Positions 1,300-17,921 of a stretch of DNA of 64,000 bases are shown here, piece by piece. The position numbers were made by a program, and so were the translations under genes. Position 1 is the stretch's first letter, and every line of letters begins with the position of its first letter. The stretch lies in assembly GCA_016202695.1 (NCBI GenBank), contig JACQOE010000025.1, positions 1-64,000 on the forward strand. Reading direction: 5' to 3'. A model generated the notes under the pieces. That model did no database searches. It saw nothing but the letters and a program-made list of their open reading frames with translations, and was not told where the DNA came from. This DNA is from Pseudomonadota bacterium. Its GTDB lineage: Bacteria > Pseudomonadota > Alphaproteobacteria > JACQOE01.

Positions 1300-2919
1300 C
1301 TATCTCGTCACGTAGCCCATCAGGCGGTCGCGGGCGACGAGCCCGGGGTCGCGCTCGGCCTCGGGGCCGAAGCCGCCGCCGCCGGGAAGGGTGAGCTGGA
1401 GGGTGTCGCCCTTCTTGAGGAAATACTTGCCCTTGGCGTCCTTCCACTCGCCGTTGATGTGGACCGCGCCGAGGCCGCCGGGTCCGCCGCCCTTGATGCC
1501 GGGGGCCGGGTTGCGGGTCCGCTCGGCGAGGAAGACCACGGTCACCGGGGTATCGGACTCGCTCTCGACCAGCACGTCCTGGCCGAGCCCGCCGCGGTGC
1601 CGGCCCCGCCCGCCGGAATCGGGGGTGAGACGCTTGAAGTGGAAGAAGAAGGGCGAGACCTGCTCGCACACCTCGACCGGCGAGGAGGAGGCGTTGGAGG
1701 GCCAGCACAGGCACTGCTCGCCGTCGCGGGATGCGAGCGCGCCCATGCCGCCGTTGAAGAACATGGTGTTGGCGTAGGTCTTGCCGTTCGGGCGCACCCC
1801 CGATTGGGTGATGTTCCAGATCGGCGAGCCGGGCCCGGCCATCACCCGGTGCGGCGCCACATCGGCCAGGGCCGAGAGCACCATCGGCGGCAGGTAGTGG
1901 CCGACCATGGCGCGGAGCCCCACCGCGGTCGGGAACCTCGGGTTCAGGATCGAGCCCTCGGGCGCCATCACCCTCACCGCCCGGAACACCCCCTCGTTGT
2001 TGGGGAGGCTGGGCGAGAACACGCATTTGAGCGCGTAGGAGGTGTAGGCGAAGGTGTAGCAGAGCGGCGCGTTGACCGCGTTGCCCTGCGCCGGAGAGGA
2101 GCCGGCGTAGTCGCAAATCACCTCGTCGCCGGAGATGGTCAGCGCCAGCTTGAGCGTGATCGGCGAGCCGGAGCCGTCCATCGCCGCCTCGGCGTGGTAG
2201 GTGCCGTCGGGCACCGCGCGGATCGCGGCCCGCATCGCCCGCTCGCAGCGGCCCTGGATCTCGGCCGCCAGCTCCTTGAGCGAGGCGAGACCGTACTCGG
2301 CCATCACCTCGATCAGGCGCTTCGCCATCAGCTCGTGCGCGGTCACCTGCGCCCAGAGGTCGCCGACCGTCTCGTCGGGGGTGCGCACCGCCGCGCGCAG
2401 GAGCTTGAAGAAGGTGTCGTCCGGCTTGCCCTCGTGGATGAACTTCATCGGCGGCATGAAGAAGCCCTCCTCGAACACCTCGCGCGGCAACGCCGAGCGG
2501 AGGTGCCCGCCGATGTCGGGGGCGTGGGCGGTCGAGCCCGAGAAGGCTACGATACGCCCCTCCCTGAAGATCGGCCGGCAGACGGTGATGTCGGGGAGGT
2601 GCCCGGTGCCCTTCCAGGGGTCGTTGAGGATCAGCACGTCGCCCGGGCGCATGTTCTCCTTGCCGATGTCGGCGATGAAGTGCTTCACGCTCCGCGGCAC
2701 GGTGCCGATGAAGGAGGGGATCGAGCCCGTGCCCTGGACCAGCGAGTTGCCGTCCTCGTCGCAGATGACGCAGGAGAAGTCGAGCGACTCGTAGACCAGG
2801 GTCGAGAACGAGGTGCGCAAGAGCGCCGCGCTCGCCTCGTCGACCACCGAGATGAGGCGCGTCCACAGCACCTCCAGCATCACCGGATCGAAGGCGCCCT
2901 CGGCGTGCCGCTCGCTCAT
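1300..2919 (-). CDS. Hydantoinase B / oxoprolinase family subunit, paralogue 1
   Basis: This 539-residue protein has the usual size and marks of the HyuB/AcxB family: NDPWKGTGHLPD at residues 99-110, a PDIGGHLRS segment, PPMKF, a GGRGRHRGGLGQ glycine-rich loop, and a C-terminal PGGGGFGP. Family members act with a HyuA partner in ATP-dependent opening of hydantoin or oxoproline rings, or in carboxylation of ketones. It is the last of four tandem hyuB genes behind one hyuA. It is separated from paralogue 2 by about 200 bases that hold a palindromic repeat, so its expression may differ from the others. It groups with paralogue 2 by the shared GGHLRSALPRE segment. Substrate is unknown. Confidence 0.9.
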   Translation of the reverse strand: MSERHAEGAFDPVMLEVLWTRLISVVDEASAALLRTSFSTLVYESLDFSCVICDEDGNSLVQGTGSIPSFIGTVPRSVKHFIADIGKENMRPGDVLILNDPWKGTGHLPDITVCRPIFREGRIVAFSGSTAHAPDIGGHLRSALPREVFEEGFFMPPMKFIHEGKPDDTFFKLLRAAVRTPDETVGDLWAQVTAHELMAKRLIEVMAEYGLASLKELAAEIQGRCERAMRAAIRAVPDGTYHAEAAMDGSGSPITLKLALTISGDEVICDYAGSSPAQGNAVNAPLCYTFAYTSYALKCVFSPSLPNNEGVFRAVRVMAPEGSILNPRFPTAVGLRAMVGHYLPPMVLSALADVAPHRVMAGPGSPIWNITQSGVRPNGKTYANTMFFNGGMGALASRDGEQCLCWPSNASSSPVEVCEQVSPFFFHFKRLTPDSGGRGRHRGGLGQDVLVESESDTPVTVVFLAERTRNPAPGIKGGGPGGLGAVHINGEWKDAKGKYFLKKGDTLQLTLPGGGGFGPEAERDPGLVARDRLMGYVTR

Positions 2920-3004
2920 GCTCCCGCTCCTCTTCCCTGTCCCCGGCGCGCGTTGCGCCCAACTTCAGGGCTGGTCTACGAATCGGGCCGCTTCCCTTCT
3001 TCTC

Positions 3005-3077
3005 GTCACCCCCGCGAAAGCGGGGGTCCATCTCGCGCCCGGAAAGTCTGGATTCCCGCTTGCGCGGGAATGACGAT
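3005..3077. repeat. Composite palindromic repeat between hyuB1 and hyuB2
   Basis: A gtcacccccgcgaaagcggg hairpin is followed by a second hairpin, attcccgcttgcgcgggaat, with tgacgat at the edge. The same two-hairpin architecture appears in the opposite orientation at 20524-20606. It sits in the only sizeable gap of the hyu operon, where it could act as an RNA hairpin that lowers read-through or protects the upstream mRNA. Confidence 0.8.
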
Positions 3078-3121
3078 CAGGGACCGCCGGGCGACGAGCC
3101 TCCGATTCCTTCACCGGGCCC

Positions 3122-4735
3122 TCACTCGGCGACGTAGCCCATCCGCCGGTCGCGCTCGACCAGCCCGGGATCGCGCGCCCCCGGCGGCCCGTAGCCCCCG
3201 CCGCCGGGCGTGCGCATCATCAGGGTGTCGCCCTTGCCCAGCACGTGCTTGGCCTTGGGATCGGCCGGCCGGCCGTTGATCTCGATCGCGCCCACCCGCC
3301 CGGGCCCGCCGCCGGCGATGCCGGGGGCGGCGGCGCGGGTGCGCTCGGCCAGGAAGACCACGGTGACGGGGGTCTCCGACTCGCACTCGATCAGCATCTC
3401 CTGGCCCAGCCCGCCGCGGAACCGGCCCCTGCCGCCCGAACCCGCGGCGAGGCGCTTGTGGCGGAACAGGAAGGGCGCGTTCCGCTCCATCATCTCCACC
3501 GGCACGTTGGAGATGTTGGACGGCCAGGAGAGCGCGCTCTGCCCGTCGCGGAAGGGAAGCGCGCCCATGCCACCGTTGAAGAAGAAGTTGTTGGCGTAAG
3601 GTTTCCCGCCCTCGCGCACCCCCGACTGGGTGATGTTCCAGAGCGGCGAGCCGGCGCCGGCCATCACCTTCCCGGGGATGACGCGGGCGAGCGCACCCAG
3701 GACGAGGGCCGGCAGGTAGTGGCCGACCATGGCGCGAAGGCCGACCGCGGTCGGGTAGAGCGGGTTGACGATCGAGCGCTCGGGGGCCGTCACCCTGACC
3801 GAGCGGAAGACGCCCTCGTTGTTGGGGAGGCGGGGCGAGAGCGCGGCCTTGAGCGCGAAGGCCGTCATTGCGAAGGTGTAGCACATCGGGCAATTGAGGG
3901 CGTTGCCCTGCGCCGGGGAGGAGCCGGCGTAGTCGGCCAGCGCCTCGTCGCCGGCGATGGTGAGGGCGAGGCGGAGCGTGACCGGCGCGGTCGTGCCGTC
4001 GGTCTCGAGCTCGTTCCGATAGGTGCCGTCGGGAAGCGCCCGGATGGCGGCGCGCATCGCCGCCTCGGCGCGGCCCTGGAACTCGTCGGCGAGCGGATCG
4101 AGCGAGGGCAGGCCGTAATCCGTCATCAGCTCGATGAGGCGCCGCTCGGCGAGGTCGAGCCCGGTGACCTGCGCCCACAGGTCGCCCAGGGTCTGGTCGG
4201 GGGTGCGCACGGCCGCCTCGATGAGGCGGATCAGCGCCTCGTCCGGCTCGCCCCCGTGGATGAACTTCATCGGCGGGATGAAGAAGCCCTCCTCGAACAC
4301 CTCGCGCGGCAGGGCCGAGCGCAGGTGCCCGCCGATGTCGGGGACGTGGGCGGTGGAGCCGACGAAGCCGACCAGCCGCCCGCCCAGGAACGCCGGCTTG
4401 ACCATGGTCACGTCGGGCAGGTGCCCGGTGGCGAGCCAGGGGTCGTTGGTGATCAGCACGTCGCCCGGGCGCATGTTGGCCGCCCCGATCTCGCGGATGA
4501 AGTGCTTCACCGAGGCCGGGAGGGTGCCGATGAAGGAAGGGATCGAATCCGTGTTCTGGGCCAGCGAGCGGCCCTTGGCGTCGCAGATCAGGCAGGCGAA
4601 GTCGTTGGACTCGTTGACCAGGGTGGAGAAGGCGACGCGCCGGAGCGTCTTCGCCTGCTCGTCGACGACCGAGATCAGCCGGGTCCACAGGACCTCGAGC
4701 GTGGCGGCGTCGAAGGGTCCGCCCGCGGGGGTCAT
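3122..4735 (-). CDS. Hydantoinase B / oxoprolinase family subunit, paralogue 2
   Basis: This 537-residue HyuB-family protein keeps the whole family core: NDPWLATGHLPD, PDIGGHLRSALPRE, IPPMKF, a GGRGRFRGGLGQ loop and a terminal PGGGGYGP. By eye it is closest to paralogue 1, sharing a run from GGHLRS to PPMKFIH that differs from the equivalent run in paralogues 3 and 4. The gene starts 33 bases after paralogue 3 ends, consistent with cotranscription from hyuA. Expected role is the second subunit of an ATP-dependent amidohydrolase or carboxylase. Which HyuB pairs with the single HyuA cannot be told from sequence. Confidence 0.9.
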   Translation of the reverse strand: MTPAGGPFDAATLEVLWTRLISVVDEQAKTLRRVAFSTLVNESNDFACLICDAKGRSLAQNTDSIPSFIGTLPASVKHFIREIGAANMRPGDVLITNDPWLATGHLPDVTMVKPAFLGGRLVGFVGSTAHVPDIGGHLRSALPREVFEEGFFIPPMKFIHGGEPDEALIRLIEAAVRTPDQTLGDLWAQVTGLDLAERRLIELMTDYGLPSLDPLADEFQGRAEAAMRAAIRALPDGTYRNELETDGTTAPVTLRLALTIAGDEALADYAGSSPAQGNALNCPMCYTFAMTAFALKAALSPRLPNNEGVFRSVRVTAPERSIVNPLYPTAVGLRAMVGHYLPALVLGALARVIPGKVMAGAGSPLWNITQSGVREGGKPYANNFFFNGGMGALPFRDGQSALSWPSNISNVPVEMMERNAPFLFRHKRLAAGSGGRGRFRGGLGQEMLIECESETPVTVVFLAERTRAAAPGIAGGGPGRVGAIEINGRPADPKAKHVLGKGDTLMMRTPGGGGYGPPGARDPGLVERDRRMGYVAE

Positions 4736-4768
4736 TTTTCCCGCCTTACCCCGTGCGGAGTGTGCGGA

Positions 4769-6415
4769 TCAGAGGCTGGCATAGCCCATCAGCCGGTCGC
4801 CGGCGGCGAGCTCCCGGTTCCGCTCCCCGGGCGGGCCGAAACCGCCGCCCCCCGGGGTGCAGAGCCGCACCGTCTGCCCCTCCTTGAGCACGTAGAGGAG
4901 CCGGTTGTCGATCACCTTGTCGTCGATCTCGACCCGGCCCAGCGCCCCCGCCTCGCCGCCGAACATGCCCGGGGCCGGATTCTTGGTCCGTTCGGCCAGG
5001 AAGATGATGGCGATCGGGGTCTTCGACTCGTTCTCGAACAGGATCTCCTGGCCCAGCCCGCCGCGGTGCCGGCCGCGCCCGCCGGAATCCGGGCGGAGCC
5101 GCTTGTGGCGGACGAACAGCGGGCTGTTCCGCTCCATCATCTCCACCGGCACGCCCGAGATGTTGGACGGCCAGCAGTAGGTGCTCTGCCCGTCGCGATT
5201 ATGCAGCGCGCCCATGCCGCCGTTGAAGAAGAAGACGTTGGCGTAGGTGCCGCCGCCCTCGCGCACCCCGGTCTGGATGATGCTCCAGAGGGGCGAGCCG
5301 GCGGCCGCCATCACCCGCTCGGGCATCACCCGGCTCAGCGCCCCGAAGATCAGCACCGGGAGATAGTGGCCGGTCCCCACCCGCCCGCCGACCGCGGCCG
5401 GAAAGCGGGGGTTGACGATCGACCCCTCGGGGGCGATCAGCCGGATCGAGCGGAACACCCCCTCGTTGTTGGGCAGCGTCGGCAGGAGCGCCGCCTTGAG
5501 CGCGTAGGCGGTCATGGCGAAGGTGTAGGTGGTGGTGCAGTTGAGCGCCCGGTCGACCTGGGGCGAGGTGCCGGTGTAGTCGACCGTCACCTCGTCGCCG
5601 GCGATGGTCACCTTGACCCGGTAGGTGATCGGCTCCTCCAGGCCGTCGGTCTCGAAGCCGAAGGAGTAGACGCCGTCGGGCACCGCCCGGACGGCCGCGC
5701 GCATCGCCCGCTCGCAGCGGCCGTGGATCTCGTCGGAAAGCTCGGTCAGCGTCTCCAGCCCGTACTCGTCCATCAGCTCCAGCACCCGGCGCTCCATCAG
5801 GTCGAGGCCGGTGAGCTGGGCGTAGATGTCGCCGACCGTCTGGTCGGGGGTGCGCACGGCGGCGCGCAGCAGGGTGAAGAGGGTCTGGTTCGGCCGGCCC
5901 TCGCTCAGCATCTTGAGGGGCGGGATGTGGAACCCCTCCTCGAACACCTCGCGCGGCTCGACCGAGCGGATCTTGCCGCCGATGTCGGGGACGTGCGCGG
6001 TGGAGGCGGCGAAGGCAACGATCCGCCCGCTCCGGAAGATCGGCTTGGCCACGGTCACGTCGTTGAGGTGGCCGGTGGCCACCCAGGGGTTGTTGGTTGT
6101 GAGCACGTCGCCGGGGCGCAGGCCGTCGAGCCCGAACTCCTTGATGAAGTGCTTCACGGTGACGGGAAGCGCGCCGATGAAGGAAGGGATCGAGTCGGTG
6201 TTCTGGACCAGCGACTGGCCGCGGACATCGGTGACGATGCAGGCGAAGTCGTTGGACTCGTTGACCAGCGTCGAAAAGGCGGCGCGGGTCAGCGCCTTCG
6301 CCGCCTCGTTGACGGTGGAGATGAGGCGCGTCCACAGCACCTCCAGCGTCGCCGCATCGAACCTCGGCCGCGTCTCCGTCTGCGCGCTCATGGCCTCGCC
6401 CTCACCTTCCCCCAT
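4769..6415 (-). CDS. Hydantoinase B / oxoprolinase family subunit, paralogue 3
   Basis: This 548-residue HyuB-family protein follows paralogue 4 with only a 9-base gap. It shares GGKIRSVEPRE and FHIPP with paralogue 4, marking a second subfamily. One position is odd: the motif read as NDPW in the other three copies is NNPW here (residues 108-111), so an otherwise conserved Asp is Asn. The TGHLND segment that follows is present. The asparagine may alter metal or substrate handling, or make this copy structural. The start could also be Met9 (base 6391); both starts have a purine-rich stretch upstream. Confidence 0.9.
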   Translation of the reverse strand: MGEGEGEAMSAQTETRPRFDAATLEVLWTRLISTVNEAAKALTRAAFSTLVNESNDFACIVTDVRGQSLVQNTDSIPSFIGALPVTVKHFIKEFGLDGLRPGDVLTTNNPWVATGHLNDVTVAKPIFRSGRIVAFAASTAHVPDIGGKIRSVEPREVFEEGFHIPPLKMLSEGRPNQTLFTLLRAAVRTPDQTVGDIYAQLTGLDLMERRVLELMDEYGLETLTELSDEIHGRCERAMRAAVRAVPDGVYSFGFETDGLEEPITYRVKVTIAGDEVTVDYTGTSPQVDRALNCTTTYTFAMTAYALKAALLPTLPNNEGVFRSIRLIAPEGSIVNPRFPAAVGGRVGTGHYLPVLIFGALSRVMPERVMAAAGSPLWSIIQTGVREGGGTYANVFFFNGGMGALHNRDGQSTYCWPSNISGVPVEMMERNSPLFVRHKRLRPDSGGRGRHRGGLGQEILFENESKTPIAIIFLAERTKNPAPGMFGGEAGALGRVEIDDKVIDNRLLYVLKEGQTVRLCTPGGGGFGPPGERNRELAAGDRLMGYASL

Positions 6416-6424
6416 CCCCGGTCC

Positions 6425-8044
6425 TCAGTCCTCGACGTAGCCCAGCAGCCGGTCGCGCGCGCGCGCGGCCGCACCGCGCTCCTCGGGCGGGCCGTAGCCG
6501 CCGCCGCCCGGCGTCCGCAGCAAAAGCGTCGCGCCCTTCTGCAGCACGTACTGATGGCGGGTGTCCATCGAGGTGCCGTCGATCACCACGTCGCCCCGTC
6601 CGCCCTCGCGTCCGCCGAGGAGCCCCGGCGCGGGGATGCGGGTGCGCTCGGCGAGGAAGATCACGGCGATCGGGCTCTCGGACTCGTTCTCCATGTAGAT
6701 GTCCTGCCCGAGGCCGCCGCGGTGGCGCCCGTCGCCCCCCGAGTTGGGACGGAGCCGCTTGTAGCGGAAGAAGAACGGGCTGTTCTGCTCGGCGACCTCC
6801 ACCGGCGTCGAGGAGATGTTGCTCGGCCAGGAGATCGTCGACTCCCCGTCCTTGGCCCTCACCGCCCCCATGCCGCCGTTGAAGAAGAGGTTGTTGGCAT
6901 AGGGTTTGCCGTTCGGCCGCACGCCCGACTGGGTGCAGTTCCAGAGCGGCGAGCCGGGCGCCGCCATCACCCGCTCGGGCAGCACCTTGGCGAGCGCGCC
7001 GAATACCACCGCCGGCACGTAGTGGCCGGTGTTCGAGCGCCCGCCGACGGCGGCCGGGAACAGCGGATTGAGGATCGAGTTCTCCGGCACCGAGATGGTG
7101 ATCGGACGGAACACCCCCTCGCAGTTCGCGATCTCGGGCAGGAGCGCGCACTTCACCGCATAGGCCACCATCGCGAAGGTGTAGCAGAGGCAGGTGTTGA
7201 TCGCGCGGGGCTGCACCGGCGAGGTGCCGGTGAAATCGGCGTGGATGGTCTCGTCGGCGACCGTGAGCCTCACCCTGAAGACGAAGGGCGCGTTGGGGGC
7301 GAGGCCGTCGGTCTTCATCTCGAACTCGTAGGACCCGTTGGGCACGCCGCGAATCGCCTCGCGCATCGCCGCCTCGCAGCGCCGGTTGAGCTCGTCGGAG
7401 AGCTCGGTGACGCGAGCGAGCGCGTAGTCGTCCATCAGCGCGTTGAGACGAAGGTCCATGAGGTCGAGGGCGGTGATCTGGGCGTAGATGTCGCCCACCG
7501 TCTGCTCGGGGGTGCGCACCTGCGCCTTGAGCACCCTGAAGAAGGTCTCGCTCGGCACGCCCTCGTGGAAGATCTTCATCGGCGGGATGTGGAATCCCTC
7601 CTCGAAGATCTCGCGCGGCTCGACCGAACGGATCTTGCCGCCGATGTCGGGGACGTGCGAGGTCGAGGCGGCGAAGGCCACGATCCGGCCGCCGCGAAAG
7701 ATCGGCCTCACCACGCACACGTCGTTGAGGTGCCCGGTCCCCTTCCACGGGTCGTTGGTGCAGAGGATGTCGCCCGATTTCATCCGCTCCACCCCGATCT
7801 CGCGGACGAAGTGCTTCACCGTCGAGGGAAGCGTCGAGATGAAGGACGGGATCGAGCCCGTGTTCTGGGCGACGAGGTGGCCGCGCTCGTCGGTAAGGAC
7901 GCAGGCGAAGTCGTTGGCCTCGTTGGAGAGCGTCGAAAAGGCGGTGCGCGTGACCGCCTTCGCCGCCTCGTCGACGATCGAGATCAGGCGCGTCCACAGC
8001 ACCTCGAGGGTGACCGCGCCGAAGGCGGGCGCGTGCTCGCTCAT
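6425..8044 (-). CDS. Hydantoinase B / oxoprolinase family subunit, paralogue 4
   Basis: This 539-residue HyuB-family protein lies immediately downstream of hyuA. Its ATG at 8044 is two bases after the hyuA TGA, and an in-frame GTG at 8050 overlaps that stop, so translational coupling is likely. The core motifs are intact: NDPWKGTGHLND, SHVPDIGGKIRS, HIPPMK, a GGDGRHRGGLGQ loop and PGGGGYGPP at the end. Its position makes it the best candidate for the main partner of the HyuA encoded upstream. A longer reading frame runs upstream to 8605, but that part overlaps hyuA in another frame and is not protein-like, so I start at 8044. Confidence 0.92.
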   Translation of the reverse strand: MSEHAPAFGAVTLEVLWTRLISIVDEAAKAVTRTAFSTLSNEANDFACVLTDERGHLVAQNTGSIPSFISTLPSTVKHFVREIGVERMKSGDILCTNDPWKGTGHLNDVCVVRPIFRGGRIVAFAASTSHVPDIGGKIRSVEPREIFEEGFHIPPMKIFHEGVPSETFFRVLKAQVRTPEQTVGDIYAQITALDLMDLRLNALMDDYALARVTELSDELNRRCEAAMREAIRGVPNGSYEFEMKTDGLAPNAPFVFRVRLTVADETIHADFTGTSPVQPRAINTCLCYTFAMVAYAVKCALLPEIANCEGVFRPITISVPENSILNPLFPAAVGGRSNTGHYVPAVVFGALAKVLPERVMAAPGSPLWNCTQSGVRPNGKPYANNLFFNGGMGAVRAKDGESTISWPSNISSTPVEVAEQNSPFFFRYKRLRPNSGGDGRHRGGLGQDIYMENESESPIAVIFLAERTRIPAPGLLGGREGGRGDVVIDGTSMDTRHQYVLQKGATLLLRTPGGGGYGPPEERGAAARARDRLLGYVED

Positions 8045-8046
8045 CG

Positions 8047-10140
8047 TCACGCCGCCCCCTCCTGGGGAACGGTGACGACGAGATTGCCCGAAGGCGCCAC
8101 CACGAAGCTCGCCCCGGGGCCGACGATGAGCGTCGATTCGCGCTCCTCCACCACCGCCGGTCCCTGGAAGGAGTCGCCCGGCTTCATTGCGTAGCGATCG
8201 TAGACCGCGGCCTCGACGAAGCCCTTGGCCTCGGGGAAGTAGACCGGCCGCTTGCCCTTGAGCGCCTTGCCCTTGCCGCCCGCGGCCAGCGTCACCTCGG
8301 TGGCGCTGCCGGCGATCTCGGCCTTGACCGAGACGCGGATGTTGATGAACTCCGCCGGCACGTCCGGGGGGGTGCGGGTGAACTTCTCGATATAGGCCTT
8401 CTCGAAGGCCTCGTTCAGCGCCGCCTTCGAGGCGGCCGTGTAGGGCCCGTCGGGAAGCTCGACCACCACCTCGAAGGCTTGGCCCACATAGCGGATGTCG
8501 GCGAGGCGCGTCACCTTGGCCTTCTTGGGATCGAGGCCGGTCTCGGCGATCACCGCCTTGGCGTTGTCCTCGAGCTTCCGGTAGGCCGCCTCGAGGTCGG
8601 TCCACTTCACCTGGTCGATCCGGACCGCGACCGTCGCCACCCGGTCGATCCGCGCCGGCGCCATCAGCAGCCCGAGCGCCGAGGCCACGCCCGCGGCCTT
8701 GGGGCAGATCACCTTCCTGAGGCCAAGCTTCTTGGCCACGTAGTAGGCGTGCACGGGGCCGGCCCCGCCGGTGGCGAGGATGGCGTAGCGGCGCGGGTCC
8801 TTGCCGCGCTCGGCGATGTGCACGCGCGCCGCCGAGGCCATGTTCTCGTTGACCACGTCGTAGATGCCCCAGGCGACCTCGGTGAGCGAGAGGCCGGTCT
8901 GCTTCATCAGCGGCGCCATCGCCCGCTCGGCGGCCTTGAGGTCGATCTTCATGGTGCCGCCGGCGAAGAAGTCGGGATTGAGGTAGCCGAGGAAGAAGTC
9001 GGCGTCGGTGACGGTTGCGTTGGTGCCGCCGCGCCCGTAGGAGGCAGGCCCCGGCTCCGAGCCCGCGCTCTGCGGCCCGACCTTCAAGAGCCCGATCTCG
9101 TCGATGTGGGCGATGGAGCCGCCGCCGGCGCCGATCTCGATCAGCTCGATCGAGGAGATGCGGATCGGAAAACCGCTCCCCTCGATGAAGCGCTTCTGGC
9201 GCGCGGCCTCGAAGGCGTAGGTGATGAGCGGCTGGCCGTTATCCACCACCGAGAGCTTGGCCGTGGTCCCGCCCATGTCGAAGGCGAGCACGTTGCCGCC
9301 CCCGTCCTCGGTGCCGAAGAAGGCGGCGGCCAGGGCCCCGGCCGCCGGCCCCGACTCGAGCAGCTGCACCGGCGAGCGCTTCGCCTCCTCGACGTTGGTC
9401 AGGCCGCCGTTGGAGAGCATGAGCTGGAAGGGCGCCCGCACCTGCCGCCCCTTGAGCTGACCGGCGATGTTGGCGAGGTAGACGTGCGCGAGGGGCTTGA
9501 TGAAGGCGTTGGCGGCGGTGGTCGAGGCCCGCTCGAACTCGCGGATCTCGGGGGCGACGTCGCAGGAGGCGCTGATCGCAACCTTCGGGTGCCGCTTCGC
9601 CACCCGCGCCGCCGCCGACCTCTCGTGCGACGGGTTCTTGTAGGAGTGCAGGAAGACGATGGCGATCGAGGTTGCGCCGTTCTTGACCAGCTCGTCGGCG
9701 ACCTTGTCGAGGCGCTGCTCGTCGAGCGGGGTCTTCACCGAGCCGTCGTGCTTGATCCGCTCGCCGACCTCGAGGCGCAGGTTGCGCGGGATCAGCGGCG
9801 CCGGCTTCTCGATGGCAATGTCGTAAAGCTCGTACTTGCGCTCGCGCCCGATCTCGAGGGTGTCGCGGAAGCCCTCGGTGGTGATCAGCCCGGTCACCGC
9901 GCCCTTGCGCTCGATCAGCGAGTTGGTGAACAGCGTCGTCGCGTGCACCACCCGCCCCATCTCCTCGGGCTTGAGCCCGTCCTCCTTGAGCAAGGTGTCG
10001 ATGCCGGTCATCACGCCGATCGAGGGATCGCCGTGGGTGGTGAGCACCTTGCGGTTGAACTGCCGGCCCGTCTCGCGGTCGTAGACCACGATGTCGGTGA
10101 AGGTGCCCCCGATGTCGATCCCGAGAGAGTACCTACTCAC
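8047..10140 (-). CDS. Hydantoinase A / oxoprolinase family subunit
   Basis: This is a 697-residue HyuA-family protein, the normal length. It begins with an ASKHA-type nucleotide-binding segment, GIDIGGTFTD, about 7 residues in. It carries a second phosphate-binding loop, FDMGGTTAKLSV, then GAGGGSIA and GPASYGRGG. These fit the ATP-using subunit that activates substrate for its HyuB partner, as in N-methylhydantoinase, 5-oxoprolinase and acetone carboxylase. I chose the GTG at 10140 because an AGGAGG element lies 10 bases before it. The ATG at 10164 would bury that element in the coding region. It is the first and only hyuA of an operon with four hyuB genes. Confidence 0.92.
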   Translation of the reverse strand: MSRYSLGIDIGGTFTDIVVYDRETGRQFNRKVLTTHGDPSIGVMTGIDTLLKEDGLKPEEMGRVVHATTLFTNSLIERKGAVTGLITTEGFRDTLEIGRERKYELYDIAIEKPAPLIPRNLRLEVGERIKHDGSVKTPLDEQRLDKVADELVKNGATSIAIVFLHSYKNPSHERSAAARVAKRHPKVAISASCDVAPEIREFERASTTAANAFIKPLAHVYLANIAGQLKGRQVRAPFQLMLSNGGLTNVEEAKRSPVQLLESGPAAGALAAAFFGTEDGGGNVLAFDMGGTTAKLSVVDNGQPLITYAFEAARQKRFIEGSGFPIRISSIELIEIGAGGGSIAHIDEIGLLKVGPQSAGSEPGPASYGRGGTNATVTDADFFLGYLNPDFFAGGTMKIDLKAAERAMAPLMKQTGLSLTEVAWGIYDVVNENMASAARVHIAERGKDPRRYAILATGGAGPVHAYYVAKKLGLRKVICPKAAGVASALGLLMAPARIDRVATVAVRIDQVKWTDLEAAYRKLEDNAKAVIAETGLDPKKAKVTRLADIRYVGQAFEVVVELPDGPYTAASKAALNEAFEKAYIEKFTRTPPDVPAEFINIRVSVKAEIAGSATEVTLAAGGKGKALKGKRPVYFPEAKGFVEAAVYDRYAMKPGDSFQGPAVVEERESTLIVGPGASFVVAPSGNLVVTVPQEGAA

Positions 10141-10157: not shown

Positions 10158-10164
10158 GCCTCAT

Positions 10165-13584: not shown

Positions 13585-14517
13585 ATGGAGGGCGCGCTTC
13601 AGATCGCGGTCGCCGGCGCCGGGGCTACCGGCGCGTACTTGGCGGCGCGGCTCGCGGCGGCCGGGTTCGAGGTCACGCTCCTCGCCCGGGGGCCGAGCCT
13701 GGCCGCGATCCGCGAGCGCGGCATCGCCGTCGAGGGGCCGGGAGCCGAGCGGCTCAGCGCCCGCCCGGCGCGGGTGGTGGCCGCGGGCGAGGACGCGCCC
13801 GAGCCCGATCTGGTGCTGATCTGCCTGAAATCCTACGACACCGAGGCGGCGCTTCCCGCCCTCGCCCGCCTGGCCGGGAGTGACGCCCGGCTCCTCTGCC
13901 TTCAGAACGGGATCGGGAACGAGGACGTCCTCGCCCGCCGCTTCGGACGCGAGCGGGTGATGCCGGGAGTCCTCTACGTGGGCGCGGCGCGGATCGCGCC
14001 CGGGGTGGTGCGGCTCTCGGCCCCCGCCCGCATCGTGCTCGGACCCGCGCCCGAGGCCAACCGCGCCCGCGCCGAGGCCGCCCGCGGCGCCTTCGCCGCC
14101 GCCGGCATCGCTTGCGAGTGGGACGAGGACGTGCTCGCCTCGAAATGGCAGAAGTTCCTCTTCAACTCGGCCCTCAACCCGCTCACCGCCCTCACCGGGC
14201 TCCGGCTCGGCGCGATCCTCGCCGACGAGGGCGGGCGCAGGCTCTTCGCCGCCCTCCTCGACGAGGCGATCGCCGCCGCGCGGGCTGCGGCGACTCCCCT
14301 CAAGCCGGATGCGCGCGAGCGGGTGATGGAGGTCGCGGGGCGGATGGACATCTCCTCGTCGATGGCCGAGGACCTGGCCGCCGGCCGACGGATCGAGATC
14401 GAGGCCTTCAGCGGCCACGTCCGGCGCCTCGCCCGCGAGGCCGGGCTTGAGACCCCGGTCACCGACACCGTGCACGCGCTCCTTGCGCTCCGCGCCGCCG
14501 CCGAGAGGAAACCATGA
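13585..14517 (+). CDS. Ketopantoate reductase family protein (PanE/ApbA-like)
   Basis: This 310-residue NAD(P)-dependent reductase has a Rossmann GAGATG motif at residues 11-16 and the C-terminal-domain catalytic lysine in SKWQK (about residue 187), followed by FNSALNPLTAL, typical of 2-dehydropantoate 2-reductases. It overlaps the next gene by 4 bases (ATGA) in an apparent three-gene operon with two amidohydrolases. A catabolic 2-keto-acid reductase is therefore at least as likely as pantothenate synthesis. I start at 13585, where the Rossmann fold begins; an upstream ATG at 13492 adds a low-complexity tail. Confidence 0.85.
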   Translation: MEGALQIAVAGAGATGAYLAARLAAAGFEVTLLARGPSLAAIRERGIAVEGPGAERLSARPARVVAAGEDAPEPDLVLICLKSYDTEAALPALARLAGSDARLLCLQNGIGNEDVLARRFGRERVMPGVLYVGAARIAPGVVRLSAPARIVLGPAPEANRARAEAARGAFAAAGIACEWDEDVLASKWQKFLFNSALNPLTALTGLRLGAILADEGGRRLFAALLDEAIAAARAAATPLKPDARERVMEVAGRMDISSSMAEDLAAGRRIEIEAFSGHVRRLAREAGLETPVTDTVHALLALRAAAERKP

Positions 14518-15374
14518 GCAACCCGGCGATCACCGGCGAGGGCCGGAGGCCCCGGCTTGCCGCCCCGCCCGGCGCCTGCGAGTGCCACTCGCATGTCTAC
14601 GGGCCCTTCTCGCGCTTCCCCCTCGCGCCGGGACGGAAACCCCACGCCGAGGCGCCGGTCGCGGCCTACGAGCGGCTCCTCGCCCGGCTCGGGTTCGCGC
14701 GCGGCGTCATCGTGCAGCCCTCGGCCTACGCCGCCGACAACGCCTGCACCCTCGCCGCCATCGCGGAGATGGGGACCGACCGCGCCCGCGGGGTGGCGGT
14801 GACCCGGCCCGAGGTTTCGCGGGCCGAGCTCGGTCGCCTGCACGCGGGCGGCATCCGGGGAATGCGCTTCTACCTCTTCGCCCCCGACCTCGGGCTCGAG
14901 GTGATCGACGAGATGGCCCGTCGCATCGCCCCCTTGGGGTGGCACGTGGACGTGCAGGGCGACGGGCGGAAACTCCCCGACTGGATTCCGACTCTGGCGC
15001 GCCTGCCGGTGGACGTGGTGATCGACCACATCGGCCGCATCCCGCCCGAGAGCGGGACGGAGAACCCGGCGTTTGCGGCCCTCCTCGGCTTCGTCGAGAC
15101 GGGACGGTGCTGGGTCAAGCTCTCGGCCCCCTACTACGGCTCGCGCCAGGGCCCGCCGGCCTACGCCGACATCGCCCCGCGGGTAAAGGCGCTCATCGCC
15201 GCCCGGCCCGACCGGCTGGTCTGGGCGGCAAACTGGCCGCACCCCTCCTTCGCCGTGGGGGAGAAGCCGGACGACGCCGACCTCCTCGACCTCCTCCTCG
15301 ACTGGGCGCCGAAGGAGGAAACCCGCCGGATGATCCTCGCCGACAATCCGGCGCGGCTCTACGGCTTCGCGTGA
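14514..15374 (+). CDS. Amidohydrolase family 2 protein (LigI-like), copy 1
   Basis: This 286-residue TIM-barrel hydrolase has the N-terminal CECHSHVYGP motif (His25 and His27), VIDHIGRIP in mid-barrel and WAANWPHP near the end. These match the family of 2-pyrone-4,6-dicarboxylate lactonase and related ring-cleavage hydrolases. The acidic residue found in TDWPH-type motifs of LigI is Asn here, so the exact reaction may differ. The start overlaps panE by 4 bases and the end overlaps a paralogue by 4 bases, suggesting translational coupling of all three. Confidence 0.85.
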   Translation: MSNPAITGEGRRPRLAAPPGACECHSHVYGPFSRFPLAPGRKPHAEAPVAAYERLLARLGFARGVIVQPSAYAADNACTLAAIAEMGTDRARGVAVTRPEVSRAELGRLHAGGIRGMRFYLFAPDLGLEVIDEMARRIAPLGWHVDVQGDGRKLPDWIPTLARLPVDVVIDHIGRIPPESGTENPAFAALLGFVETGRCWVKLSAPYYGSRQGPPAYADIAPRVKALIAARPDRLVWAANWPHPSFAVGEKPDDADLLDLLLDWAPKEETRRMILADNPARLYGFA

Positions 15375-16222
15375 GCGGCGCCGTACCGGGCCGCACGCCC
15401 CGGCTCGTCGCCCCGCTGGGGGCGTGCGACTGCCTGGCCCACGTCTTCGGGCCCAGGGCCCGCTTCCCCTACCCCGCCGGCATCGAGGCCCCGCCCGACC
15501 TTCCGCTCGAAGACTACGAGCGGGTGCGCGCGCGGCTCGGGCTCGCGCGGGCAGTGCTGGTGCAGCTCCCCCACTATGCAACCGACAACGCCTGCATTCT
15601 CGATGCTGTAGCCCGCCTCGGGCCCGCCCGCGCCCGGGCGGTGGCGGTCACCCGCCCGGAGGTCGACGCGGCCGAGCTTGCGCGGCTCGACGCGGACGGG
15701 GTGCGCGCGCTCCGGTTCCTTCTCTTCGCGCCCTACCTCCGGCTCGACGTGATCGGGGAGGTGGCGCGCCGCATCGCCCCCTTCGGCTGGCACGTCGAGG
15801 TCCAGGGCGACGGTCGCGACCTTCCCGACCAGATCCCGGTCCTCGCCCGCCTGCCGGTGGCGGTGGTGATCGACCACCTGGGCCGCATCCCGGCCGAGGG
15901 CGGGACGGACCACCCGGCCTTCCGCGCCCTCCTCGCCTTCGTCGAGGGCGGCCGCTGCTGGGTCAAGCTCTCGGCGCCCTATCACGCCTCGCGGACCGGC
16001 CCGCCCGATTATGCCGACCTCGCGCCGCGGGCGCGGGCGCTGATCGCGGCGCGGCCCGACCGGATGCTGTGGGCGAGCAACTGGCCCCACGCGCTCCGGC
16101 GCCCCGGGGAGAAACCGGACGACGCCGACCTCCTCGATCTCCTCCTCGATTGGGCGCCGGAGGCGGAGACGCGGCGGCTGATCCTGGTCGAGAACCCGGC
16201 GAGGCTGTACGGCTTCGACTAG
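15371..16222 (+). CDS. Amidohydrolase family 2 protein (LigI-like), copy 2 with altered HxH
   Basis: This 283-residue paralogue of the preceding gene starts with a GTG that overlaps the previous TGA (gtga). It keeps VIDHLGRIP, a WVKLSAPY segment and WASNWPHA. The first histidine of the family HxH signature is replaced: the N-terminus reads CDCLAHVFGP, so Leu22 stands where copy 1 has His25, while His24 is retained. The loss may change substrate or make the copy a non-catalytic partner. A longer frame extends upstream to 14447, but that part is a shadow of copy 1. Its 3' end overlaps the convergent aldolase gene by 4 bases. Confidence 0.85.
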   Translation: MSGAVPGRTPRLVAPLGACDCLAHVFGPRARFPYPAGIEAPPDLPLEDYERVRARLGLARAVLVQLPHYATDNACILDAVARLGPARARAVAVTRPEVDAAELARLDADGVRALRFLLFAPYLRLDVIGEVARRIAPFGWHVEVQGDGRDLPDQIPVLARLPVAVVIDHLGRIPAEGGTDHPAFRALLAFVEGGRCWVKLSAPYHASRTGPPDYADLAPRARALIAARPDRMLWASNWPHALRRPGEKPDDADLLDLLLDWAPEAETRRLILVENPARLYGFD

Positions 16223-17004
16223 CGCTTGATCCCCCTGAGGAGGCCGGTCCGCTGCTTCATGCCGCCCATCAGCAAGGCGAGGTCGTTGCCGGCGAGGATG
16301 AACTGCGCCCCCATCTTGATGTAGCGCTCCATCAACGGCGGGTCGTAGACGCCGCCCATGCCGGGAAACTTGCCGTGCTTGCGGCAGGCGGCGATCACCC
16401 GCTCGTAGGCGGCGACCACACGCTTGTGGCCGTATTGGCCGGAGATGCCCATCTCGGCGGTCAGGTCGCTGGTGCCGATGAGGAGCACGTCCACCCCCTC
16501 GACGGCGGCGATCTTGTCGGCGTTCCTGATCGCCTCCGGGCTCTCCAGCATCACCACCACCAGGGTGTTGTCGTTCATCAGCCTAGTGGCCTCGGCCGCG
16601 GGCACCGCCGCATATTCCATCTGCGCCTGGCCGCCGGCGACCGAGCGATGGCCCACCGGCGGGTACTTGGTGTTGTTGACCACCCGGCGCGCCTCCGCGA
16701 CCGTGTTCACGTGCGGTACCACCACGCCGAGCGCGCCGCCGTCCAGAACCCGGGTGGCGTGATAGTGCTCGTGGCCGGGAACCCGCACGATGGGAGTGAT
16801 GCCGGCATCGAGCGCGGCGATCCCGACCTGCACGCAGGTGTCGATCGACATGGTGTTGTGCTCCATGTCGAGGAACAACCAGTCGAAGCCCGAGACCTTG
16901 GCGATCTTGGCGATGTCCACCGTGCGCGCGAGGCGGATGCCGCAGCCGAGGGCGAGCTCGCCCTTCTGCAGCTTCTCCTTGGTGTGGTTGGGTACGAGCG
17001 CCAT
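16219..17004 (-). CDS. HpcH/HpaI aldolase family protein, copy 1
   Basis: This 261-residue class II aldolase-type protein has family marks: a FLDMEHNTMS segment, an IVRVPG strand, a VVMLESPEAI metal-ligand Glu strand and IGTSDLTAEMG. HpcH/HpaI enzymes use a divalent metal to cleave 4-hydroxy-2-keto acids to pyruvate or oxaloacetate and an aldehyde. A clear paralogue lies directly upstream at 17133-17921. Together with the LigI-like hydrolases converging on it, this fits breakdown of a ring-cleavage product, although no complete pathway is visible. Confidence 0.88.
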   Translation of the reverse strand: MALVPNHTKEKLQKGELALGCGIRLARTVDIAKIAKVSGFDWLFLDMEHNTMSIDTCVQVGIAALDAGITPIVRVPGHEHYHATRVLDGGALGVVVPHVNTVAEARRVVNNTKYPPVGHRSVAGGQAQMEYAAVPAAEATRLMNDNTLVVVMLESPEAIRNADKIAAVEGVDVLLIGTSDLTAEMGISGQYGHKRVVAAYERVIAACRKHGKFPGMGGVYDPPLMERYIKMGAQFILAGNDLALLMGGMKQRTGLLRGIKR

Positions 17005-17132: not shown

Positions 17133-17921
17133 TCAGTCGCGCTTGATGCCGCGGATCTCCTTGGCCCGCGCCGAGGCCGCCTGGAGGAGGAAGGCGAGGT
17201 CGCTGTTGGTGGTGAGGAAGCGGAAACCCATCTTGAGGTACTTGGCGAAGAGGCCCGGATCGCGCACCCCGCCCATGCCGGCGAAGCGGCCGTGCCGGCG
17301 CGCCGCCGCGATCACTCGCTCGAACGCCTTGGCCACCTCGGGGTGATCGAACTGGCCGGTGAGGCCCATCTCGGCCAGGAGGTCGGAGGTGCCGACGTGG
17401 ATCACGTCGATGCCGTCGATGGCCGCGATCGAATCGACGTTGGCGATCGCCTCGGGCGTCTCCAGCATCACCGCGAGGAGCGTGTTCTGGTTGAGAGTGC
17501 GGGTGGCCTCGGCGAGCGGCATCGGCTCGAAGCCGAGCTGGACGTAGTTCCCCATCACCGAGCGATGGCCCACGGGCGGGAACTTGCAGGCGGCGACCGC
17601 GGCGCGCGCCTCCTCAGCCGTGTTCACGTGCGGGACGATGATCCCCATTGCGCCGCCGTCGAGCACGCGGCTGGCGTGGAAGTGCTGGTGGCCGGGGACC
17701 CGCACGATGGGCGTGACGCCCGAGTCGAGCGCGGCGATGCAGATCTCGACCGCGGTCGCGATCGACATGGTGTTGTGCTCCATGTCCACCGAGACCCAGT
17801 CGTGGCCCGAGGCCCTGGCGAGGCGGGCGGCGTCGCCGGTGCGCGAGAGCCGGAGGATCAACCCCAGGGCCAGATCGCCCGCGCGAAGCTTCTTGAGCGT
17901 GGTGTTCTCGACGGCCGGCAT
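17133..17921 (-). CDS. HpcH/HpaI aldolase family protein, copy 2
   Basis: This 262-residue protein is similar to copy 1 along its whole length, sharing EHNTMSI, IVRVPGH, the PPVGHRSV segment, the MLETPEAI Glu strand and GTSDLLAEMG. The metal- and oxyacid-binding positions appear intact in both copies. The two genes run in tandem on the minus strand with a 128-base spacer and probably arose by duplication. Different aldehyde or keto-acid specificities are the likely reason for keeping both. Upstream lies the repeat-rich gap beginning at 17922. Confidence 0.88.
   Translation of the reverse strand: MPAVENTTLKKLRAGDLALGLILRLSRTGDAARLARASGHDWVSVDMEHNTMSIATAVEICIAALDSGVTPIVRVPGHQHFHASRVLDGGAMGIIVPHVNTAEEARAAVAACKFPPVGHRSVMGNYVQLGFEPMPLAEATRTLNQNTLLAVMLETPEAIANVDSIAAIDGIDVIHVGTSDLLAEMGLTGQFDHPEVAKAFERVIAAARRHGRFAGMGGVRDPGLFAKYLKMGFRFLTTNSDLAFLLQAASARAKEIRGIKRD

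Follow-up and report, generated by a model that had tools for sequence, protein, structure and literature searches.

One hyuA gene followed by four tandem hyuB genes in an alphaproteobacterial genome

Introduction

Most members of the large ATP-dependent hydantoinase/oxoprolinase superfamily have no known substrate, and the published rule for its gene clusters is that one HyuA-type subunit (A) goes with one HyuB-type subunit (B) (PMC5214803). Hydantoinase is encoded by a two-gene cluster (hydAB) and acetone carboxylase by three genes. Acetophenone carboxylase takes four or five, and has two A-type subunits (alpha and alpha'), one B of 684 amino acids (aa), gamma and usually epsilon (PMC5214803). 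Here we describe a run of one hyuA and four hyuB genes in a 64,000-nucleotide (nt) stretch (the window) of contig JACQOE010000025.1, from the draft genome of a Pseudomonadota bacterium (GCA_016202695.1; the source genome). This combination of one A with four B genes fits none of the published cluster types (PMC5214803).

Among two-subunit members, the caprolactamase CapAB of Pseudomonas jessenii (PDB 6YRA) has been studied in detail. The metal ligands of CapB are D41, H99, D102 and H124, mutants of which are inactive, and a mechanism of activation followed by transfer has been proposed for the enzyme (PMC8453981). In the N-methylhydantoinase of PDB 7HK5/9H03, A and B are fused. A study of sponge microbiomes found hyuA and hyuB to be enriched in symbionts (PMC5649159). 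We found no report of several hyuB genes per hyuA in the literature searched, which left out most subscription papers.

Results

One hyuA and four hyuB genes form a complete array

The five genes all lie on the minus strand, and coordinates are positions in the window. The features of the run are as follows.

8047..10140, minus strand: HyuA, ASKHA kinase-type ATP-binding subunit, 697 aa from GTG at 10140
6425..8044, minus strand: HyuB paralogue B4, 539 aa, Pfam PF02538
4769..6391, minus strand: HyuB paralogue B3, 540 aa, Pfam PF02538
3122..4735, minus strand: HyuB paralogue B2, 537 aa, Pfam PF02538
2920..3121, minus strand: gap between B2 and B1, 202 base pairs (bp), with a palindromic element resembling an interspersed repeat, CGTCATTCCCGCGCAAGCGGGAATCCAGA ... 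TGGACCCCCGCTTTCGCGGGGGTGACG
1300..2919, minus strand: HyuB paralogue B1, 539 aa, Pfam PF02538

The layout given in the preliminary description, one HyuA preceding four HyuB proteins of nearly equal length, was thus borne out by coordinates, strand and Pfam assignment. HyuA matched PF05378, PF01968 and PF19278 (Hydant_A_N, Hydantoinase_A and the C-terminal domain) above cut-off, and each of B1-B4 carried a full-length PF02538 (Hydantoinase_B) match at 494-509 bits, also above cut-off. The GTG start of HyuA has AGGAGG upstream, and an alternative ATG at 10164 is also open. Shine-Dalgarno-like sequences were found upstream of every start in the run, and the gaps from A through B4, B3 and B2 to B1 measured 2, 33, 33 and 202 bp. 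Both halves of the palindromic element in the last gap form strong hairpins (CCCGC..GCGGG), and the element may reduce read-through into, or expression of, B1. The run is flanked by an HNH gene (101-1114) on the B1 side and by a divergent gene without a known family on the HyuA side, so the array is complete and not truncated by the contig end.

ATP motifs and metal ligands are conserved

The ATP motifs DIGGTFTDI, DMGGT and GSEPGP were read in the HyuA translation, aligned to 6YRA_A and 5L9W_B, and agreed with the superfamily pattern DxGGTxTD, D-M/V-GGT and GxxPGP. When the B proteins were mapped on CapB, all four metal ligands were found in every copy (B1, D47/H107/D110/H132; both B2 and B4, D45/H105/D108/H130; B3, D48/H108/D111/H133). 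Domains, ATP motifs and metal ligands all place the proteins in the superfamily.

Pairwise identity among B1-B4 was 59-69%, with intact reading frames and a GC content at third codon positions (GC3) of 0.95-0.97. Each copy departed from 1-4 of the 112 invariant columns of the subfamily, and single-copy homologues departed from 0-6. The intact frames, the kept metal site and the few invariant-column breaks gave no sign of decay in the extra copies. Ratios of nonsynonymous to synonymous substitution obtained by counting (0.56-0.76) were discarded as meaningless at such GC3, and the A-contacting first helix of B, only slightly more conserved than the whole (55% invariant against ~44% overall), was not used as evidence.

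Fourteen CapB pocket positions could be mapped, of which nine were identical across B1-B4 and five differed (the equivalents of CapB T336, V386, L409, C410 and L415). A pair of pocket tryptophans (W368 and W406 in B1) was present in 25/25 members of the window's HyuB subfamily and, as a pair, in none of the other B proteins examined, and so marks this subfamily. The pair aligns with W438 and W479 of the acetone carboxylase XaAc, both among the three tryptophans by which the pocket of that enzyme is narrowed (PMC8453981), which makes a small pocket possible in the window's HyuB subfamily.

Substituted metal sites were seen elsewhere in the source genome (G000). The first metal histidine is replaced by Gln in an orphan HyuB (L072, 4884-6428; C96:108880-110412) whose sister is an intact B member of the C40 array described below. 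The same replacement occurs at L034 (9642-13376, on C92), where the HyuB stands beside a HyuA with an in-frame TAG; this AB pair looks decayed, unlike the window's genes.

The locus differs from each described enzyme

The two-gene hydantoinase branch (PMC5214803) is matched in its AB gene order and in its short subunits without gamma (here A of 697 aa and B of 537-540 aa), but four B genes stand in place of one hydB. CapA and CapB are homologous to the window's proteins over their full length and share their ATP motifs and the four metal ligands. However, CapAB has one B per A in an (AB)2 assembly, whereas the window has four B per A; the gene order is B-A in CapAB and A-B here; and the vicinal disulfide Cys410-Cys411 of CapAB is absent, the two positions being C/S/C/S and W. 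A caprolactamase in the strict sense was rejected, as scores of 173-215 bits (B) and 512 bits (A) compare with an NCBIfam equivalog cut-off of 1000. The best match among solved structures, for both A (E 3e-123) and B (profile E 1e-76), was the fused N-methylhydantoinase, in which A and B occupy one chain at a ratio fixed at 1:1, whereas in the window B is encoded separately and outnumbers A. Acetophenone carboxylase (Apc; PDB 5L9W) belongs to the same superfamily and also departs from a simple 1:1 AB composition, but in the opposite way, with an extra A-type subunit, one B, and gamma and epsilon in addition.

The four B lineages are old

A likelihood tree of 30 B proteins was built with IQ-TREE, and topologies were compared by the approximately unbiased (AU) test. 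B1 and B2 formed a sister clade (support 100/99). Genomes of f95 and f80 have a single-copy B that grouped with B3 (100/97), and f67 genomes have one that grouped with B4 (100/99). A single clade of B1-B4 was rejected (p-AU 3.6e-6), which rules out a recent tandem duplication as their origin. The terminal branches of the four were of similar length (0.26-0.37), with none accelerated. Since a single clade was rejected and B3 and B4 joined the single B of different families, the trees indicate that the B lineages had already separated before several alphaproteobacterial families diverged from each other.

The preliminary description had sorted the four into two pairs by short segments, and GGHLRSALPRE in B1 and B2 and GGKIRSVEPRE in B3 and B4 are indeed present. 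The first pair held as a clade, but a B3+B4 sister pair was rejected (p-AU 1.3e-6). The GGHLRSAL segment is particular to B1 and B2, whereas the KIRS-type segment is widespread among outgroups; GGKIRS is apparently a retained ancestral trait.

In the A tree, the window's HyuA had the same neighbours as B3 (f95/f80), with the f67 A proteins just outside. Support was 96/96 for the group of nine and weaker inside it (81/60 and 80/74). These trees would be most simply reconciled by an ancestor in which A had three or more B genes, of which the other families kept one. Alternatively, foreign B genes may have been captured beside A.

B genes outnumber A genes in the source genome

The source genome is a 3.36 Mb draft in 100 contigs (87% complete, 4.7% contamination) and the sole representative of its order in the genome collection compared. 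It contained 58 PF02538 matches against 25 PF01968 matches, or 45 B (>=1300 bp) against 23 A when only long genes were counted. In 12 relatives, chosen for having close B homologues, the totals were 192 and 190, and the B/A ratio was <=1.25 in every one, bearing out the earlier statement that one hyuA usually pairs with one hyuB. The difference between the source genome and the 12 relatives gave a Fisher p of 0.0015 on all matches, and of 0.013 with a long-gene count of 46 B and 23 A (long B genes were later counted as 45). The 58 HyuB matches were the highest number among the genomes compared, followed by 23 (G280). Of the B genes lying 3 kb or more from any contig end, ten had no A on the same strand within 2.5 kb.

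Two B genes were adjacent at 12 places in the source genome. A second array, on C40 (L023), has one A and at least four tandem B genes on the same strand and is cut by the contig end; like the window's run it begins with A, but it belongs to another HyuB subfamily with separate duplications. Further runs were A-B-B-(B) on C51 and A-B-B on C77. Outside the source genome, the matches listed included isolated A-B-B or B-B pairs only (G094:C13, G056, G044 and G225), and tandem B genes, split genes aside, were absent from 99 further Pseudomonadota genomes. The locus on contig 13 of G094 (L077) likewise has one HyuA followed by two tandem HyuB genes on the same strand, and its B pair forms a clade of its own, a duplication separate from those of the window.

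The imbalance was also seen within subfamilies. The source genome holds seven B of the window's subfamily (four in the window and those on C21, C69 and C18) against one A, and eight B of the C40 subfamily (four on C40, two on C88, one on C15 and one on C96) against one A. The window's HyuA was the only member of its subfamily found there; the remaining A genes were 45-60% identical or of other subfamilies, and an A fragment on C32 was rejected as a second member, being 76% identical to another subfamily. In the C69 and C18 copies the contig starts within the B gene, and an unassembled upstream A is possible. Elsewhere among the genomes inspected, the window's subfamily was present as one A and one B, with the A-B-B of G094 as the exception.

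Many contigs end inside HyuB genes (C18, C69, C36, C51, C53, C40, C16, C92 and C94, and also C34, C48, C22, C26 and C56), and the C69 and C18 copies are almost the same over their first ~90 residues. The assembly looks broken by tandem B arrays, and the true arrays may be longer.

Neighbouring genes

The window also encodes an MmgE/PrpD protein, a ketopantoate-reductase family protein, two amidohydrolases and two HpaI-type aldolases, which indicate a catabolic region only. The adjacent amidohydrolases and the aldolases are further duplicates (14514-15374, 15407-16222, 16219-17004 and 17133-17921), and both amidohydrolases were nearest to a 4-sulfomuconolactone hydrolase model, below cut-off. 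Across 18 related loci, no neighbour family other than A and B was common to more than a few; an enoyl-CoA-hydratase-like gene lay near 7/18, and no neighbour was shared with the window. The f67 AB pair related to B4 (L078, L079 and L080) adjoins amidase-like, polysaccharide-deacetylase/allantoinase-like and aminotransferase-like genes, and these loci also hold a two-part sulfopyruvate-decarboxylase-like enzyme. These names come from reading the sequences rather than from a family search, and the genes are a possible substrate clue.

Discussion

As a gene arrangement, the locus is a genuine oddity that is backed genome-wide. From homology to CapAB and N-methylhydantoinase, the most likely enzyme type is an ATP-dependent ring-opening amidohydrolase. 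We consider it reasonably probable that the locus encodes such an enzyme with a single HyuA shared by four alternative HyuB proteins. Alternative B subunits, one of the possibilities raised in the preliminary description, best fit genes that are intact, keep the metal site, diverged anciently and belong to a genome with about twice as many B as A; we infer from these features that the B proteins are expressed, bind this HyuA and differ in substrate.

If the system works like CapAB, HyuA would use ATP to activate a cyclic amide or a similar carbonyl, and the resulting intermediate would travel through a tunnel between A and B. Ring opening would then take place at the metal site of the HyuB that happens to be bound. 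The four B proteins probably each make a separate (AB)2 enzyme with HyuA, and the identity of the bound B would set substrate preference. The nearest parallel is found in sphingomonads such as Sphingobium sp. PNB, where one ferredoxin/reductase set serves multiple terminal oxygenases (PMC4048848). The likeness lies in one shared energising component with several catalytic ones of differing specificity, partly scattered in the genome. However, the sphingomonad oxygenases are unrelated enzymes that depend on electron transfer rather than substrate phosphorylation, and sharing has been tested there, whereas here we infer it.

Several observations weigh against a shared HyuA with functionally distinct partners. 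Over the 14 mapped positions, the pocket of B1-B4 is no faster-changing than the rest of the protein. Pocket divergence as proof of different substrates was therefore not obtained, and with the pocket as conserved as the remainder, the substrates of the four may be the same or very close. In addition, contig-end fragments inflate the B excess of the source genome, further A genes could be missing from a draft of this completeness, and stray B-only contigs, as distinct from arrays on a single contig, could be foreign in view of the contamination estimate.

The conserved pocket also bears on the strongest rival, in which old duplications left surplus B genes that persist by chance or for protein dosage, with one main active pair, most likely A and B3. 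The largely common pocket residues, the matching tree neighbours of B3 and A, and the position of B1 behind the 202-bp gap with its palindromic repeat would all suit this explanation. However, old, undecayed paralogues with catalytic ligands and unaccelerated branches are not expected of leftovers, and the arrangement evolved anew in a second subfamily of the source genome and, as A-B-B, in G094:C13. We therefore regard redundancy or dosage as unlikely.

Different HyuB proteins might instead enter the same assembly, for example as hetero-dimers at the B-B interface within an (AB)(AB') complex, with one B perhaps structural. The segment that distinguishes GGHLRSALPRE from GGKIRSVEPRE copies starts the CapB-CapB interface stretch (CapB 129-174; PMC8453981), and genes in one run could be co-expressed. 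Yet every two-subunit member known so far has the form (AB)2 and contains a single kind of B, B3- and B4-type proteins occur singly with one A in other families and are evidently able to act as the only B, and the metal site in all four leaves none that looks purely structural. Such a mixed enzyme seems improbable to us. The preliminary description had likened it to acetophenone carboxylase, a likeness that fails on the single A-type gene, the B length of ~540 aa and gaps of 2-202 bp, too short to accommodate a gamma gene within the operon.

An assembly or binning artefact, in which a chimeric contig or mixed strains produced the array and the B excess, is very improbable. The fragmented draft, its contamination and the many contig ends in HyuB genes would allow it, but 59-69% identity is too low for strain variants or assembly duplicates, the four copies share their GC3, an array of the same form stands on another contig, and an A-B-B run occurs in an unrelated genome. 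Least credible is a ketone carboxylase of the acetone or acetophenone type with several B-like subunits, which we rejected in spite of the alignment of B1 W368 and W406 with XaAc W438 and W479 and weak matches to the ApcD and ApcC models, given a single A-type subunit, no gamma gene in the run, B proteins of ~540 aa against 684/776, ApcD scores of 81-98 bits against a curated cut-off of 1500, and closest solved structures that are N-methylhydantoinase and caprolactamase.

Returning to a HyuA shared by alternative HyuB proteins, a wider and more tentative generalisation, which we hold to be somewhat doubtful, is a hub-and-spoke organisation in which single HyuA kinases activate large sets of interchangeable HyuB proteins, arrayed or scattered, so that B genes alone need be added to broaden the substrate range. 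Were one A to serve many B proteins, the two subunits would be separable modules. Orphan HyuB genes then need not be pseudogenes, and partners would go undetected in activity screens limited to adjacent AB pairs. With four natural B proteins beside the same A, the locus offers a ready comparison for asking which subunit sets substrate choice, with possible use in the degradation of lactams, hydantoins or polyamide monomers.

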